Source: Nitrospiraceae bacterium
GTDB taxonomy: Bacteria > Nitrospirota > Nitrospiria > Nitrospirales > UBA2166
Direction: 5' to 3'
DNA: 64,000 nucleotides
NCBI GenBank assembly: GCA_002726235.1
Contig: PBSN01000007.1
Span: forward strand, 41,813 to 105,812
Under the pieces are notes generated by a model. The model was not told the DNA's origin. It searched no databases and was given only the letters and a program-made list of their open reading frames with translations. The position numbers and the translations under genes were made by a program. Shown here one piece after another: positions 16,139 to 23,838 of the stretch. Position 1 is the stretch's first letter, and each line of letters opens with the position of its first letter.

Positions 16139-17117
16139 GACATCGTTGATACAACGACAGTCTGAGCGTGGCGTCGCGCTCGTTATTACTCTATTGATGG
16201 TGGCGTTACTGGTCACCTTGATTCTGGAATTTGATGTGTCGACGCGCAATGAACTCAATGCAGCCACTAATTTCCGTGATGGCATGAAGGCATCGTATCT
16301 TGCAAAAGCTGGGGTGTCCGCTGCACAAGCAATTATGGCGGAAGATGCGAGAATCGATAAAATGTTTGGACGAAATTACGACACGTTGTTTGAGGTATGG
16401 GCTACACCGTTGCCGAACTATCCCATTGGTGATGGTGTTGTTTCCGTGCAGGTGACGGATGAAATGGGAAAGCTTAATCTCAATGATCTAGCCGCATTAA
16501 CACAGGGTGAAGCCTCAGACTCCCTCAGACTGCTGGATCATACTAGGCGCTTCGAACAGTTATTTGAGCTTCTGGTTCTAGATACCCGCTTGCTTGATGC
16601 TATTTTGGATTGGGTCGATTCCGATGACCGTCAAAGGAAAGACGGGGCAGAGATACAATACTATGGAGAACTAGATCGGCCGTATGTTACTAAGAATGGC
16701 CCATTCGATAGTCTTTCTGAACTTCGCTTGGTCAAGGGCATTACGGATCAGGTGTTCGAACGGCTGAGTCCGTTTGTGACCGTCTATCCGCGAAAACCCG
16801 ATGGAGTTACACCCGTAAATATCAATACTGCCGATCCAGTTGTGCTTCAAGCGCTTGATGATCAGGGGAATATTTCCACAGCGCTGGCCGGCGATATACT
16901 GCAGGCGAGACCCTTTCAAAGTGCGCAGGACCTCAATCGCGTGACGGCGCTGGGCGATATCGATGAAAAACTACGTGCGGATAGAGTCGTCGAGGTGGCA
17001 AGTTCGTATTTTTCAGTGCGGGCGGTTGGAACGGTTGGCGAGACGTCAAAGATTGCAAAGGCCGTCATTAAACGTGATGCAGAAAAAACTGAGTTGGTGT
17101 ATTTGCGGATGGAGTAA
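16098..17117 (+). CDS. gspK: minor pseudopilin GspK
   Basis: 339 residues from ATG 16098. The ORF-track start inside gspM is unlikely. The leader ends SERG, followed by VALVITLLMVALLVTLILEFD, with no Glu+5 but with the GspK hydrophobic pattern. The large domain has LAKAGVSAAQAIM, DEMGKLNLNDL, DAILDWVDSDDRQR and PVNINTADPVVLQAL, all GspK hallmarks. The proposed start lies in a dispersed palindromic repeat. TTG 16146 (leader MIQRQSERG) just outside the repeat is an attractive alternative. Last gene of the gsp operon. Confidence 0.92.
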   Translation: MHTHVRRKAIFQQSTSLIQRQSERGVALVITLLMVALLVTLILEFDVSTRNELNAATNFRDGMKASYLAKAGVSAAQAIMAEDARIDKMFGRNYDTLFEVWATPLPNYPIGDGVVSVQVTDEMGKLNLNDLAALTQGEASDSLRLLDHTRRFEQLFELLVLDTRLLDAILDWVDSDDRQRKDGAEIQYYGELDRPYVTKNGPFDSLSELRLVKGITDQVFERLSPFVTVYPRKPDGVTPVNINTADPVVLQALDDQGNISTALAGDILQARPFQSAQDLNRVTALGDIDEKLRADRVVEVASSYFSVRAVGTVGETSKIAKAVIKRDAEKTELVYLRME

Positions 17118-17284
17118 TGATGATGGCGTATGGAATTTTGGGGTACTGATGTCATAGGAGATTGAGCTCGCAAGCGTGGTGTTGGACGATCAGGCGAATG
17201 AATTTGGAGGTCGGCGAGTTGATGATGTGATAGTCGGAGAACTACGCCGGTGATTAGGGGTCTGATGTGGACAGGGAGGATGTC

Positions 17285-17947
17285 ATGACGCGTGAACTTA
17301 CATACCAACATGCCATGAGAGATTTGGTGAATTTGTATGCGGAAATTGATCATCTGACGATGGAGTGCTGTGCTGCATGGCTTCCGAAGGCTCCAGATCG
17401 TCATGCGCAACTTGAAATGGCAGAACAGATTGGAGAGGAACGAAATCACTATCTTTCCCAAGTTGAGTGGCTCAATTGTCATGCTGGAGGGCACGCCTCG
17501 ATTGTGCTGCCGTCGTGGGCAGATAGCCTTCGGACGTTAGTAAATGGCATGCAATGGCCGGAATACCTTGCGTGTGTCCATCTTGCGATTGAGGGTGTTG
17601 GGATTGCCTTAGTCGAGCGCGTAGCGCGCGACGCTGATCAGGGTGTAAAGGATTGTCTCGCACCATCCTTGCGAGACGAAGGGGGACATGCGAGTTTCGG
17701 AGTGCGTCAGTTGGAGCAATTGCTTCAGAGCGTTGATGGTAAGAAGCGCGAGGAGCTTAAACGACGGATTATTGCGAGTGTTACGGCGATTGCTCGATTG
17801 GCCAGTTCGTTGCCTGTCACATCAGCACATTGGGAGGCCGTTGGGACGTCGACGGAGGAACTCCGTGATATTGCTGCTCAGCGGCTAGGAACATTACTCT
17901 CGCCGCTTGGTATTTCTCAATCGGTAAATCTCTCAGCATCAGCGTGA
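17285..17947 (+). CDS. ferritin-like di-iron protein, unknown function
   Basis: 220 residues from ATG 17285, chosen over GTG 17267 because AGGGAGGA lies 5 nt upstream. The sequence is all helix-like and carries the four-helix di-iron ligand set: Glu in LYAEIDH, ExxH in EERNH, Glu in AIEGVG, ExxH in DEGGH. Such a set supports a ferritin-like or hydroxylase fold, but the substrate is unknown. It has no signal peptide. It sits downstream of the gsp operon and 13 bp ahead of the next small gene, so the two are probably co-expressed. Confidence 0.75.
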   Translation: MTRELTYQHAMRDLVNLYAEIDHLTMECCAAWLPKAPDRHAQLEMAEQIGEERNHYLSQVEWLNCHAGGHASIVLPSWADSLRTLVNGMQWPEYLACVHLAIEGVGIALVERVARDADQGVKDCLAPSLRDEGGHASFGVRQLEQLLQSVDGKKREELKRRIIASVTAIARLASSLPVTSAHWEAVGTSTEELRDIAAQRLGTLLSPLGISQSVNLSASA

Positions 17948-17960
17948 AACGGTATCTCAT

Positions 17961-18377
17961 ATGGCACAGAAATTTGGAAATGCTCGCTGGGTCAAGGAAG
18001 GTTTTCTAGACAATCACATTGCTGGAACGGTGGTTGGGCGTATCACGTTTGCGGCTGTTGGAGTGGTCCCGATCGTGCTTCGAGGAGACTTCAAAGATGA
18101 TATCAAGGGTGAGGTCATCCTGTTTGAAAATTCTAACTTCGAGGATGATGATCGTGCAGCCCTCGGCCTTGCCGATCTTGATTCTGTGCTGCGCGGGGCT
18201 GTGCACCTGATATCGCTTGATCCGCATCCGCTTCTTGAGCCACACCCCTATATTGAGTGGTTTTCTGCCGAAGGGACACACTATCGGATTGAATTGCAGG
18301 ATGGGGATGCCAGAATTGCCTCACAACAGGAGACTTCTGCTTTGTTTGAGGAGAGCAAAAAACTGCGGTCAATATAA
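17961..18377 (+). CDS. conserved-looking small protein, unknown
   Basis: 138 residues, not recognised. It has no signal peptide or membrane segment, an acidic composition and a probable beta-rich body (HIAGTVVGRITFAAVGVVPIVL). It starts 13 bp after the ferritin-like gene and ends about 10 bp before the promoter of the next operon. A cytoplasmic partner of the ferritin-like protein is possible from proximity alone. Confidence 0.6.
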   Translation: MAQKFGNARWVKEGFLDNHIAGTVVGRITFAAVGVVPIVLRGDFKDDIKGEVILFENSNFEDDDRAALGLADLDSVLRGAVHLISLDPHPLLEPHPYIEWFSAEGTHYRIELQDGDARIASQQETSALFEESKKLRSI

Positions 18378-18385
18378 AATTTGAC

Positions 18386-18414
18386 TTGACACACGTAAGA
18401 CGCACGTCTATAGT
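18386..18414 (+). promoter_or_regulatory. near-consensus sigma70 promoter
   Basis: TTGACA at 18386-18391, a 17-bp spacer and TATAGT at 18409-18414. This is the best promoter match seen in the window, in a non-coding gap. It faces the three-paralogue envelope operon and would give a 5' leader of about 215 nt before ATG 18637. Such strength predicts abundant expression of the downstream proteins. Confidence 0.75.
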
Positions 18415-18553
18415 CGCGCTGATTGAGTGAGATAAATTACAAATCTGAAGGAATGTTGTGAGATGGATCATACTTTGAGGTGTCTGTTGTTAATAAAAAC
18501 GGGAAAGACGGTGGTTCATGGTTGATGAGGTAACGAAGGAAAGGAGTGGATCC

Positions 18554-18604
18554 ATGACCAGATGTATAATCCGAAGATATTCCACAAGGTGTAGCTCAAG
18601 TTGA
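18554..18604 (+). CDS. putative 16-residue leader peptide (uORF)
   Basis: In the long leader between the strong promoter and the first barrel gene, AAAGGAG sits 8 nt before an ATG that opens MTRCIIRRYSTRCSSS and then a stop. The peptide is basic and holds two Cys, five Ser and four Arg. It ends 32 bp before the downstream start. It could mediate translational or attenuation control, for example by Arg or Cys supply, or be a chance ORF. Too short for the ORF track. Confidence 0.4.
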   Translation: MTRCIIRRYSTRCSSS

Positions 18605-18636
18605 TAGTGTGCAATCCTAGACGGGAGGATCTCAAA

Positions 18637-19425
18637 ATGGAAAGAGCGAAATGGAAGACTATGGTGCTGCTCGTGGCGCTACTTTCCCCGCTTCTCTTCT
18701 TCGCTGCTCCCCCCAACGCGTCGTGGGCGCAGTTGCCCACCGAGATCAATGGTTTGGTCAAACTGAAGGGTGGGTTTGCGGCTCTCGAGAACAATCGATC
18801 TGGTGAAGCCTTCACAGACTGCTTTGCCATGGGATCGCCTGCCTGTAACGCTCCAGGCGCGACGCTTAATGACGGCACTACAGGGTTTAATGTTGGAGCT
18901 GGGTTGGATCTTCCACTCTGGCTGTTACCCTGGGGGCATGTTGTTGTTGCCGAACTTGACATAGGATTTTCAAAGTTCAGTTCCGGCAAGAGCTTTTTGC
19001 AGCTGATCGAGAATGGGCCGACTACGCTTGGTGGGGCAACCCCATGCGGTAGTCCGCGGTGTGCGACCGGGACCAAACCTGGGTTCCCAGGGCGTCCCCA
19101 AGAGCCAGGCGTTAGGCATGTCAATGTATCCACGGTCAATGCGGGGATCAGTCCGAAGTACCGAATGGACACGTTGTTTGGGGATGACCGGAAGTTCAGG
19201 CCATGGATTATCCCGGTGGGTTGGGAGCTCCAGGTCTTTAGTCCCCCGCCGAATTCCATGCAGATGTGGGAGATTGGTGGCGTGACTGGAGTTGGTATGG
19301 ATGTCCACGTATGGGAACGTATTTGGGTTGGTGTTGAAGGCCGGTACCACTACCAGTACACGGATCATACGGGCATCGACGGGAATTGGTTTACAGCTGG
19401 GGGATATGTAGGACTCTCATGGTGA
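18637..19425 (+). CDS. outer-membrane beta-barrel candidate, paralogue 1
   Basis: 262 residues. ATG 18637 is set by GGGAGGA 7 nt upstream and by identical starts in the two paralogues (MERAKWK). The signal peptide ends near SWA/QLP. The body has alternating strand patterns, the shared motif PWIIPVGWELQ, and a last residue Trp after GGYVGL, as expected for BAM-inserted barrels. It has a paralogue-specific insertion of about 30 residues with two Cys (near TPCGSPRC) plus another Cys pair (DCFAMGSPAC). First gene of a tandem triplet; family not recognised. Confidence 0.7.
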   Translation: MERAKWKTMVLLVALLSPLLFFAAPPNASWAQLPTEINGLVKLKGGFAALENNRSGEAFTDCFAMGSPACNAPGATLNDGTTGFNVGAGLDLPLWLLPWGHVVVAELDIGFSKFSSGKSFLQLIENGPTTLGGATPCGSPRCATGTKPGFPGRPQEPGVRHVNVSTVNAGISPKYRMDTLFGDDRKFRPWIIPVGWELQVFSPPPNSMQMWEIGGVTGVGMDVHVWERIWVGVEGRYHYQYTDHTGIDGNWFTAGGYVGLSW

Positions 19426-19499
19426 GGGGTATCTCAAACATGAGCCAGCTCATGGCACCGAAAATGCCGCAAAGCCTTGAGACACGGGAGGATTTCACA

Positions 19500-20216
19500 A
19501 TGGAAAGAGCGAAATGGAAGAAATCATTGTTGCTCTTAGCGCTAGTAATCCCGCTTCTTTTCGTCTTGTCGTTCCCCCAGACCTCGTCAGCACAGTTGCC
19601 TTTCCATGTGAATGGAAACTTCTTCTTTCAGGCTGGGGGTAAGTTCCTTATGAACGATAGGGCGAATGAGCCGTTCACGGACTTCTTTTCGGGTTCGACG
19701 GGAACGGAGCCAGCGGATAATACCGCGGGCTGGTATGTCGGAATGGGTATTGACATGCCGCTCTGGGAACTACCGTGGGGAGATGTCATCGTTGGAACCA
19801 TCAACATTGATGTAGGTCATTTTGACCAAGCTGATAAAACGTTTTTAACCGCGCAGGGCTTGCCGTCGCTAACTGCTCCGGGTCGTGGACAAGATCTGAA
19901 GCAACAGGGTGGGTTGACGACGATGGGCATCATGGTGCACCCGAAGTGGCGCATTGCGGCACTTTCGACGGAGGTGAACGGGAAACTTATTCAGCCGTGG
20001 ATTATTCCCTTCGGATTTGAAGTGCAGGCATTCGCACCACCGACAGCTGGGATGAACATCTTTGATGTGGGGTCAATTTTTGGTGTCGGCGTTGACATGG
20101 TGTTGACGAAGCGGTTGGTGGTCGGTATCGATAACCGGTGGCATGTTGGCACCGGCCAGTCTCGTATTGACACACTGAATACGACCGTTGGGGGATACGT
20201 CGGAATCCGCTTCTAG
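19500..20216 (+). CDS. outer-membrane beta-barrel candidate, paralogue 2
   Basis: 238 residues. The ORF-track start is upstream, but ATG 19500 has GGGAGGA in the same place as paralogue 1 and begins MERAKWKK. Signal peptide cleavage is near SSA/QLP. Shared motifs are NDRANEPFTD, GWYVGMGIDMPLW, PWIIPFGFEVQ, GVGVDM and the Phe ending GGYVGIRF. No cysteines remain in the mature part, unlike paralogue 1. It probably lies in the outer membrane; pore, adhesin or lipid-binding roles cannot be told apart. Confidence 0.7.
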   Translation: MERAKWKKSLLLLALVIPLLFVLSFPQTSSAQLPFHVNGNFFFQAGGKFLMNDRANEPFTDFFSGSTGTEPADNTAGWYVGMGIDMPLWELPWGDVIVGTINIDVGHFDQADKTFLTAQGLPSLTAPGRGQDLKQQGGLTTMGIMVHPKWRIAALSTEVNGKLIQPWIIPFGFEVQAFAPPTAGMNIFDVGSIFGVGVDMVLTKRLVVGIDNRWHVGTGQSRIDTLNTTVGGYVGIRF

Positions 20217-20281
20217 CGGGACGACGTCCTAAGTAACCAAGGATGACCTGCAACATGCGACATATACGGGAGGATTTGACA

Positions 20282-20971
20282 ATGGAAAGAGCGAGATGGA
20301 AGACTACATTATTGCTCTTGGCATGGCTATTCCCGCTTCTGTTCATCCCGGTCTTCCCCCAGCTATCATGGGCTCAGATGCCGGTTGAGGTGAATGGATC
20401 AACCTACTGGGGAGGCGGAATTGCCGGCTTGATCAATGATCGAGCAAATGAAATGTTTACTGACTTAAACTCGTCTCTCACGGGGAGCAAGCCAAATGAT
20501 GACACGCTTGGCTGGTACGTGAGTACGGGTATGGAAATCCCAATCTGGGGCCGCTCAAATGGACACGTCATTTTGGGCGAAATTAACATGGATTTTAGGA
20601 AGTTTGGTGGTGAGGAGGCGGGTTTCCCGGGCAGTGGGGGCGGTAAAGGTTCGGGTTTCGAGATCCATAGAGTCGACTTGATTCAGATTTCAGCCAGTTT
20701 CTCGCCGAAATATCGTTTCGATAACTTTCACTCATCTGGGCGGATCTGGCCGTGGATTATTCCAGTTGGCTTAGAGCTTGGTGCGATAAGCCCTCCAGGG
20801 CCTGACGTCAATCCGATTGATATTGGTACAGTTCATGGGTTTGGCGTTGATTATATGTTGAACCGCTACTTTATCGTCGGTGTTGATTTTCGGTATCACT
20901 TGGCCTCAGGTATCAATGCAATTGAAACCAGCAGCTTCACTTCAGGTGTGAAGGTCGGGCTACGGTTCTGA
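20282..20971 (+). CDS. outer-membrane beta-barrel candidate, paralogue 3
   Basis: 229 residues from ATG 20282 (GGGAGGA upstream, start MERARWKT). The signal peptide ends near SWA/QMP. It shares NDRANEMFTD, the GWYVSTGMEIP region, PWIIPVGLELG, GFGVDYM and a final Phe (VKVGLRF). A Gly-rich loop (SGGGKGSGFE) replaces the insertion seen in paralogue 1. The same upstream box and signal sequence in all three genes indicate tandem duplication. Confidence 0.7.
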   Translation: MERARWKTTLLLLAWLFPLLFIPVFPQLSWAQMPVEVNGSTYWGGGIAGLINDRANEMFTDLNSSLTGSKPNDDTLGWYVSTGMEIPIWGRSNGHVILGEINMDFRKFGGEEAGFPGSGGGKGSGFEIHRVDLIQISASFSPKYRFDNFHSSGRIWPWIIPVGLELGAISPPGPDVNPIDIGTVHGFGVDYMLNRYFIVGVDFRYHLASGINAIETSSFTSGVKVGLRF

Positions 20972-20992
20972 GGATTTGAGGAGGTGGTGCTG

Positions 20993-22336
20993 ATGAAACG
21001 ATGGGCTGTAAAAGTTGCGAGATGGAGGGAACCAATCATGAGAAAACATGGGCCAACAACCAGGTTCGGCCCTGGGGTCCGATACGGGCTCTTGGCGCTG
21101 ACTGTGGTCGGTATGATGGTGGGTCCAGTCATTTCTTCAGTGCTGGCGCAAGTTGTCACTCTAACGCCAACCGAAGGGGGGGCGGCTCTGGGTGTTCAGC
21201 CTGGGACTGCGACCATCGATGTTAAGCAAAACGGAAATGCGAAAGTTACATTTGACCTTTCTGGGATACCGGCGCCAAACCCAGGCCGTGAGTGTCGTGG
21301 TCTGGACAGTGACCAGTCATTGTTGTCCGGGTGGTTTCGGTTTATCAATGACGCTGGGGAATCCACGGTTAATGCGGATAACCTAGTCGAGCGGTGGGGG
21401 CCTCCACCAACTATTATTGAGGATGCTCCTGAAGGGTGCGTTGCGGAATATCCGATTTCGCGAGGGAGAAAGCCGTTCGACCCAGAGAATCCTGAGAGTA
21501 CAGATCGAGGCGGAGGGACATCTGGCTGTTATGGGAAGGCTCCAAACGTGATTACGTGGAGTCCGATAGCCAAATCGACGGCTGGCTTCACTGCCGGGAT
21601 GGGTGGAACTTCGCGTCCTGATCCGAACGGGTTTGTGTCTGATATAGACGGCGATGCGAATGCAACCCTGAAGACCAATTTTGACCCTACCGATGGGGCA
21701 ACGACACCGTTGGTTCTGAATCCATGGCATTTTGGATCGAGTGTTCCACCGTTCTGGGCGCAATGTACGAATCCAAAGGTCACTCCCGCACCGCCGGTCT
21801 GCCTTGCTGCTGGAGGAAAGCTCCGGGCGAATGACAGCGGGTATAAGCGGGTATATGAGAACAAGCCATTCAATGACCATGTTGGCCCGAATGGCGAACG
21901 CATTCCGTCGAGAATACCGGGTATCGGGGTGATCGGTGAGATGAATACTTTTGGCGAAGTTGATGAGAGGGCATATGGTCGAGGCCTTATTTTTGATATC
22001 AACGGACCCTGTGACAACAATCCTCTCGCCAGAACGCCGTGTGGGCCTGGTGGGTTTGGAAAAGAAGGTGGTCCTCCGGCACATCCGGCTGGGCGAGATA
22101 TGATGGGCTTCCCGCCGAAGCCTGGGAGTGCAAAGGGTCAGCGGTTCCAAGTTCCTGATGAAAAGGGACGGCAAACTCTTGCTCGAGCAGAGGCGACGCA
22201 CATATCGGTTGTTCTGCACAACGATTGTTTGACGCATGGTCACATTCCTGGGCATGGGCCAGGGATTGGACTTCCTCCACCGGCGCAAGGGTTGCCGGAT
22301 GATTTTGTCGAGATCTTGAGAGGAGAAATACGATGA
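20993..22336 (+). CDS. secreted protein with C-terminal THGHxPG motif
   Basis: 447 residues from ATG 20993 (GAGGAGG 8 nt upstream). An internal ATG at 21038 with GGAGGG gives a neater signal peptide (MRKHGPTTRFG..., cleavage near VLA/QVV) and may be the true start. The mature part is rich in Gly, Pro and Asp, with cysteine-containing segments, few predicted helices, and the C-terminal motif HNDCLTHGHIPGHGPGIG. It shares that motif with the next gene, which it overlaps by 4 bp. Not recognised. Secretion by the neighbouring T2SS is inference from proximity. Confidence 0.65.
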   Translation: MKRWAVKVARWREPIMRKHGPTTRFGPGVRYGLLALTVVGMMVGPVISSVLAQVVTLTPTEGGAALGVQPGTATIDVKQNGNAKVTFDLSGIPAPNPGRECRGLDSDQSLLSGWFRFINDAGESTVNADNLVERWGPPPTIIEDAPEGCVAEYPISRGRKPFDPENPESTDRGGGTSGCYGKAPNVITWSPIAKSTAGFTAGMGGTSRPDPNGFVSDIDGDANATLKTNFDPTDGATTPLVLNPWHFGSSVPPFWAQCTNPKVTPAPPVCLAAGGKLRANDSGYKRVYENKPFNDHVGPNGERIPSRIPGIGVIGEMNTFGEVDERAYGRGLIFDINGPCDNNPLARTPCGPGGFGKEGGPPAHPAGRDMMGFPPKPGSAKGQRFQVPDEKGRQTLARAEATHISVVLHNDCLTHGHIPGHGPGIGLPPPAQGLPDDFVEILRGEIR

Positions 22337-23316
22337 AACGTATGATAGTGGTCATGTTGGTCGGGTTTGCTCTTGTGATGGCTGCTCCGGTCGGCTCCCT
22401 GCTTGGATCGTCGAGCGACGCTTTGGCCGCGGGGCCAGGGGAAAAAATGATCAAGATGTTCAAGGCGCCCTTCCTGAGCCTTCCGCTCCGCGGGTTTTAC
22501 TATCCACCCGCAGTGGAAACTGACAACTTTGCGACGGTCAAGGTGTTTGAGTCTGGACAGGGAGTGCGACACTCTGAGTTGAGGTATACGTTTAGAGGGT
22601 TAACGGCTAACACGGTGCATACCTTGTGGTTTGTCAACCTGTTTATGATTACGCGTCATAGCGCGTTCCCTGGCGTTGCTCCACCAAGTCCGCAGGGGAA
22701 TCCCTACTTGCCGTGGACCTCTGGGACGGCTGGTGTAGGGTATGATGCAGATGGCGACGGTGTTCTGACTTGTGGGGAGGGTGTTAGAGGCTTTGACCCC
22801 GTTCTTACCACGGAAGAACCGACGCCGGGTAACATGAATGGTGTGGCCTTTGGAACTGGGCAGTCACCGACGTTTGACCAGAATTCCTTCTGTACAAATG
22901 AATGGGGACATGCAAATCCAGTGATTCGGTTGCCCTACGACATTACGACAAAAAATGTCCCGGCACAGACGCCTCCTCTTTTCCAAACGGAGGTAGTCGA
23001 GTTTCCAAATGGCGAAACTCTGAAGCACCGACATGTTATCGATATTTCATACAAGCGTCTCTACGATGAGAATCCAGACTCTCCTCGGTTTGGTTTTCAA
23101 AAGGTTGATAACCTTGGACGGCCAATTTTTCAGACTTGGAGGCTCATTCCGATGGTGGTCTGTACCCACTATGATGGAGGTATTGGCATGACCCATGGCC
23201 ATCACCCTGGCAATGGGCCTGGGACTGGTCCTACTCCAACGGCGTTCGGGACGGATCATGAGTGTTTGATGGCGGCGATGCCAACCACTCAGGCACGAGA
23301 CACACAAGAGGATTAG
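22333..23316 (+). CDS. secreted protein with C-terminal THGHxPG motif, partner of preceding gene
   Basis: 327 residues, ATGA-coupled to the preceding gene. The signal peptide ends near ALA/AGP. It contains DADGDGVLTCGEG, an EF-hand-like Asp/Gly loop that may bind calcium, and near the C-terminus HYDGGIGMTHGHHPGNGPGTG, related to the motif in its partner. The His density suggests metal binding. It was probably produced by duplication and divergence, or is a co-secreted partner. A strong terminator follows 42 bp later. No known family assigned. Confidence 0.65.
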   Translation: MKRMIVVMLVGFALVMAAPVGSLLGSSSDALAAGPGEKMIKMFKAPFLSLPLRGFYYPPAVETDNFATVKVFESGQGVRHSELRYTFRGLTANTVHTLWFVNLFMITRHSAFPGVAPPSPQGNPYLPWTSGTAGVGYDADGDGVLTCGEGVRGFDPVLTTEEPTPGNMNGVAFGTGQSPTFDQNSFCTNEWGHANPVIRLPYDITTKNVPAQTPPLFQTEVVEFPNGETLKHRHVIDISYKRLYDENPDSPRFGFQKVDNLGRPIFQTWRLIPMVVCTHYDGGIGMTHGHHPGNGPGTGPTPTAFGTDHECLMAAMPTTQARDTQED

Positions 23317-23358
23317 CATCACGTAGAGATAGTTTAAATACGGTTTGTATTCGGCAGG

Positions 23359-23389
23359 ACGGCCTGCGTAACGGTGTTACGCAGGCCGT
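23359..23389 (+). terminator. strong intrinsic terminator of envelope operon
   Basis: A perfect 14-bp inverted repeat ACGGCCTGCGTAAC / GTTACGCAGGCCGT with a 3-nt loop, then TTGGCGTTGTT. It closes the five-gene operon that starts at the 18386 promoter. The ORF-track start at 23374 for the next gene lies inside this hairpin, so that gene more likely starts at 23437. Confidence 0.8.
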
Positions 23390-23436
23390 TTGGCGTTGTT
23401 AGCGAGTTTGTCACGATCAGGAGGGGTTCTCGAGAG

Positions 23437-23838
23437 GTGGTTGCGTTGATTGTCAGTCTCGTTGTTTTGACGTTTCCGATCTCAGTCGGTGCCTATCATA
23501 CCCCTGATCATTTTTGTGAACAGTGTGTTGCTGAGAGTTGCGGTGGTGGGGCTTCCGATCGGAATTATTTATGGTGTGTTTCTTCAGCGTGCGGCATCGA
23601 GTGTGAGGTTTGGGTGGCGGATAGGTTCGGGGCGACTGATGGGTGTGTGGCGCAGTGTGATGCGATGCTGGAAACTTGCCAAATGGCCTCGGAAGACTCC
23701 GGTGGCCTGATTGATGATTATTGTGCGGATACCGCTCAAGCGTGTTACGTTGATTGTGAAGGTGGAGTAGAAGACGAGGATGATATGTATATCGAGGAAG
23801 GTGGGGAAGACGGATACGCTGTCTTGGATGAGGAGTGA
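23437..23838 (+). CDS. small secreted Cys-rich protein with acidic tail
   Basis: 133 residues from GTG 23437; the earlier GTG is within a terminator. The signal peptide VALIVSLVVLTFPISVGA precedes YHTPDHFCEQC. The mature part has 12 cysteines, an even number, in patterns such as CEQCVAESC and CDAMLETC, then a strongly acidic tail (EDEDDMYIEEGGEDG). Disulfide stabilisation and cation binding are likely by composition. Not recognised. It has its own transcription unit or read-through from the upstream operon. Confidence 0.55.
   Translation: MVALIVSLVVLTFPISVGAYHTPDHFCEQCVAESCGGGASDRNYLWCVSSACGIECEVWVADRFGATDGCVAQCDAMLETCQMASEDSGGLIDDYCADTAQACYVDCEGGVEDEDDMYIEEGGEDGYAVLDEE

Follow-up and report, generated by a model that had tools for sequence, protein, structure and literature searches.

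In a stretch of 64,000 nucleotides from a Nitrospirales genome of 1.87 Mb (G000), hereafter the window, a real, conserved and lineage-specific operon lies next to the genes of a type II secretion system (T2SS); its three barrel proteins probably belong to a known superfamily, and the adjacency of the T2SS looks incidental. The reading that we favour, and hold to be reasonably probable, is that of an envelope operon of the UBA2166 lineage, in which a barrel that occurs throughout the order has been triplicated (B1-B3) and combined with a pair of orphan proteins that would be exported (S1 and S2), with a metal-related role that can be inferred weakly and with the T2SS as a bystander. The family UBA2166 is reported to come from marine habitats, to be without nitrite oxidoreductase, and to have 544 family-specific genes (PMC12342949). 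The features of the region, with their positions in the window, are:

18386..18414, + strand: sigma-70-type promoter TTGACA-N17-TATAGT, 11 of 12 consensus bases, hexamers invariant in three species of the genus
18552..18602, + strand: tentative candidate for a short leader reading frame, MTRCIIRRYSTRCSSS, after GGAAAGGAGT
18637..19425, + strand: B1, predicted small outer-membrane beta-barrel protein, 262 aa, 83% identical to its OFTM238 ortholog
19500..20216, + strand: B2, paralogue of B1, 238 aa
20282..20971, + strand: B3, paralogue of B1 and B2, 229 aa
20993..22336, + strand: S1, predicted exported protein of an orphan family, 447 aa, C-terminal HxDCLTHGxxPG motif
22333..23316, + strand: S2, predicted exported protein, 327 aa, distant relative of S1, C-terminal CTHYDGGxGMTHGHHPG motif
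23359..23389, + strand: perfect 14-bp hairpin ACGGCCTGCGTAAC-GGT-GTTACGCAGGCCGT, fold z-score -4.5, letter-identical in UBA2166
23437..23838, + strand: small exported protein with 12 cysteines (counted), 133 aa with a start at GTG 23437, AGGAGG before the GTG

Much of this anatomy had been proposed in a sequence-only reading, which named a near-consensus promoter, three tandem barrel-like paralogues, two coupled secreted proteins and signal peptides throughout, and these elements are borne out. In an alignment of the window with the sister genome Nitrospiraceae bacterium UBA2166 (G003) and with OFTM238, the promoter hexamers are unchanged and the spacer is variable, and as the hexamers stay invariant while the spacer drifts, the promoter is more than a chance match. 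It would be the single promoter that drives B1-B3 and then S1 and S2. Between the promoter and B1 a conserved leader peptide is possible, judging from a ribosome-binding site and an ATGACC that are kept in the three species, from GGAAAGGAGTgGATCCATGACC, which is common to all three, and from lengths of 16, 16 and 12 codons with the same aligned end point; an Rfam scan of the window found no RNA family. B1-B3 share the N-terminal pattern MERAKWK...LLLLALL...AQ (with the variant MERARWK in B3) and a ribosome-binding block ACGGGAGGATyT upstream of each ATG, and the reading frames of S1 and S2 overlap by the four bases ATGA, so that these two related exported proteins would be translationally coupled. 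On inspection the N-termini of B1, B2, B3, S1 and S2 all look like signal peptides, and S1 and S2 are expected in the periplasm or on the cell surface.

The hairpin downstream of S2 is probably a transcription terminator. The perfect 14-bp stem that had been read as a terminator is there, with its favourable fold score, but the T-run that follows is weak and short (TTT), which is why the hairpin is missing from the list of a terminator scan. The 12-cysteine protein is real as well, and its start is better placed than before: the listed GTG start at 23374 falls within the hairpin, and most likely the GTG at 23437, directly downstream of AGGAGG, is the better one. As the gene lies on the far side of the hairpin, it is probably a separate unit from the operon. 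The protein is 73% identical to its UBA2166 ortholog, with a dN/dS of 0.2, and sequence searches of Pfam, NCBIfam, PHROGs and PDB returned nothing usable for it.

The genes of the operon are maintained by purifying selection, with dN/dS values of 0.02-0.10 in the pairs that are measurable (B1 0.08 with the OFTM238 ortholog, B2 0.02-0.07, B3 0.04-0.08, S1 0.095, S2 0.05). The operon is found in three of the four genomes examined from the window's genus, the exception being G001, an assembly that is 88% complete. The high expression that had been predicted from the sequence finds no support in codon usage: with the ATP-synthase genes of the window as reference, the operon genes have a CAI of 0.60-0.68, which is at or below that of the gsp and hem genes (about 0.67-0.70).

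It had also been stated that none of the proteins is recognised, and in fact none of those from the window exceeds the cut-off of a curated family, but the barrels can be placed once their relatives are added. By profile matching of the family, B1-B3 would then belong to the small outer-membrane beta-barrel superfamily PF13505 (OMP_b-brl), which is matched by 21 of 28 family members at E <= 0.01, with 3e-8 as the best value. The copies of the window themselves stay below the gathering score of 28.7 bits (B1 17.5 bits, B3 15.6 bits, B2 no match). Their sequences end in VGLSW, VGIRF and VGLRF, thus with a final F or W, and their signal peptides have AQ-type cleavage-like sites, and so a location in the outer membrane is to be expected. 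In the 28-row alignment of the family, 16 columns are invariant and include P142-K143, P157-W158, I160-P161, G163 and P171 (B3 numbering), and a profile search found no relative in the PDB. Classical trimeric porins were considered and rejected, as these have about 300-400 aa and 16-18 strands versus 229-262 aa in B1-B3, for which no porin profile in Pfam or NCBIfam gave a match.

The barrel family is Nitrospirales-wide and usually single-copy outside the window's genus. Of 296 Nitrospirota genomes searched with an eight-row profile, 71 have relatives, and only two of these 71 lie outside Nitrospirales. B1-B3 group in the tree with their OFTM238 orthologues, in a single supported clade (99/98) from which every other member is excluded, and each of the three copies pairs with its own OFTM238 orthologue, which means that the triplication is older than the split of the species in this genus; the branches are long, which leaves the branching order among B1-B3 unsure. 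A fourth barrel copy of the same genome (G000:C12:37402-38028; L037:6352-7029) is outside the B1-B3 clade and is closer to the nitrifier type, with 47-56% identity. This fourth copy lies upstream of porin-like and urea ABC transporter-like genes, the urea assignment being a reading of the neighbouring proteins.

A role for the operon can be approached by the neighbourhoods of the barrel relatives, of which 38 loci outside the window's genus were inspected within roughly 8-10 kb. A giant multicopper oxidase (MCO, ~1640 aa) is near the barrel in 25 of these loci, a CopD/DUF4149 membrane protein in 29, and FGE-like and CarboxypepD_reg-like genes in 24 each; one or more of these four kinds of gene are present at 37 of the 38 loci. 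With about three MCOs per 4-Mb genome, proximity by chance amounts to ~2% per locus, and the resulting binomial p of ~1e-33 is a guide only, the loci being related by descent. As relatives of the barrel are thus found near MnxG-like MCO and CopD-like genes, the operon may have a function in the handling of metal (copper or manganese), but this can be inferred only weakly. It counts against such a role that all four kinds of MCO-cluster genes are absent from the 64-kb window, so that the metal context cannot be transferred directly to B1-B3. As an observation on the oxidase itself, 56 of the 58 Nitrospirales genomes searched have matches to the giant MnxG-like MCO (e.g. L042:101-5011), frequently several per genome, and it recurs in a cluster with FGE-like, CarboxypepD_reg-like, barrel and CopD-like genes.

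An hhalign comparison shows S1 and S2 to be distantly related over their C-terminal part, with a probability of 88 and an E of 3e-6, and the region of relationship ends in a 'THG..PG' segment that bears His, Asp and Cys. This common motif, which is read from few sequences, weakly suggests that both proteins could bind metal. Searches of Pfam, NCBIfam, PHROGs and PDB sequences gave nothing usable for either protein, and no relatives outside the window's genus were found among the 296 Nitrospirota genomes. A search with S2 in 85,462 species genomes, which reaches close relatives of S2 only, found none outside the genus, nor did searches of a plasmid collection and, with S2, of a viral collection find any. 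The restriction to the genus thus applies to the genomes searched, and distant relatives in other phyla are possible. Structure prediction from three-sequence alignments yielded no usable fold (mean pLDDT 26 and 28). S2 is 97% identical in the sister genome UBA2166, and in the pairs measured S1 and S2 diverge faster (47% and 69% identity) than the barrels (83-88%).

Both proteins are rich in glycine and proline and have large insertions between species, which would fit a surface coat or adhesion layer in marine sediment, with the barrels as anchors for S1 and S2 and with no role in metal handling or the T2SS. The habitat of the family, marine sediment and vent, would also agree with such a layer (PMC12342949). 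Repeats and S-layer or adhesin domains were looked for in S1 and S2, however, and none were found. Moreover, known secretion pores are larger than barrels of this size (~230 aa), and a surface coat is on balance an improbable explanation.

The second alternative concerns the T2SS next door, for which the barrels had been proposed as partners. The gsp genes upstream do make up a T2SS, with models for GspC, E, F, G, K, L and N over or near their cut-offs and GspD just under, and they end at 17117, 1.27 kb upstream of the operon promoter. Two genes lie in between (17267-18377), one of 226 aa (o226) with a weak match to DUF455 and one of 138 aa (o138) of no family. The order gspK, o226, o138, B1 is kept in the sister genome G003, and o138 precedes B1 also in OFTM238; close relatives would show such conservation with any function, but it leaves a link to the T2SS possible. 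S1 and S2, perhaps also the 12-cysteine protein, would in that case be substrates of the T2SS and B1-B3 its outer-membrane partners, and the Sec-type signals of S1 and S2 (by inspection) as well as their faster evolution, which is common in exposed proteins, are in line with this. However, the operon has its own promoter and is separated from gspK by two unrelated genes, and G001 of the same genus, the 88% complete assembly, has gspN, gspL and gspK, whereas barrels and S2 were not found in it. The genome also has a second T2SS-type locus, on contig C8 at ~564-575 kb, with two GspD over the cut-off, GspG and a GspK-like gene.

The distribution of the barrels speaks against a dependence as well. 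Co-occurrence with the T2SS across Nitrospirota, which had been suggested as a check, was examined and says little: secretin matches are present in 290 of the 296 genomes, and as the secretin is nearly universal, phylum-wide co-occurrence with gspD was rejected as evidence. Within the order, the presence of barrels is mildly associated with strong GspD (odds ratio 3.2, p 0.014, counts tallied by hand), which is readily explained by shared ancestry. Many genomes of genus g6 with weak GspD carry GspG over the cut-off, and a genome was therefore taken as T2SS-lacking if it is weak on both. Only weak GspD matches are found in 24 barrel-bearing genomes, 12 of which are also without GspG over the cut-off, or 10 if two genus-g6 genomes are left out whose siblings carry GspG. 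These 12 are all 95-100% complete, the best assembled being G018 (2 contigs) and G029 (7 contigs). At none of the 38 loci outside the genus is there a gsp cluster near the barrel, the one related gene being a lone PilB/GspE-like ATPase. Because barrels occur in T2SS-lacking genomes and away from gsp genes elsewhere, which is what the sequence-only reading had named as a refutation, they do not depend on a T2SS, and the proposed partnership is not supported for them. S1 and S2, being confined to the genus, are not touched by this comparison, and as T2SS substrates they retain a small likelihood.

The favoured reading is thus that of an envelope operon in which B1-B3 derive from the triplication of a barrel widespread in Nitrospirales, and in which the T2SS is most likely a bystander. 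That S1 and S2 form a new family of metal-binding surface proteins exported by the T2SS, and together with the triplicated barrel a new extracellular module for metal acquisition or oxidation in non-nitrifying marine Nitrospirales, goes much further and is very unlikely. What makes the operon worth attention is that a barrel of the whole order, which accompanies an MnxG-like MCO in nitrifying Nitrospirales, was triplicated and re-housed with an orphan exported pair in the only family of the order that is reported to be without nitrite oxidoreductase (UBA2166, PMC12342949). It gives a tangible clue to what distinguishes the envelope of this marine, uncultured lineage from the envelope of nitrite oxidisers.

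Compared with known systems, the closest link to metal oxidation is the manganese-oxidising MCO MnxG of Bacillus. An MCO of 1637 aa beside a barrel relative matches NF041487 (MnxG) with an E of 5e-39, but with 133 bits it is far under the equivalog cut-off of 3100 bits, and neither the window nor the operon has such a gene. A putative MCO common to Nitrospina and Nitrospira has been likened to the manganese oxidase of Bacillus SG-1 (PMC3578206), which is not equated here with the MCO of the barrel loci. With the MCO-linked barrel of other Nitrospirales, B1-B3 share the family and its 16 invariant columns, but they are triplicated, form a divergent clade with only ~30% identity to the MCO-associated barrels, and have no MCO cluster nearby. 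Like the small barrels of PF13505, members of the family have ~230 aa, a signal peptide, a C-terminal F or W and, in most cases, a match to the model, whereas the window copies score under its gathering cut-off, and the family has a conserved core of its own, PWIIPxG...SPP...DIG.
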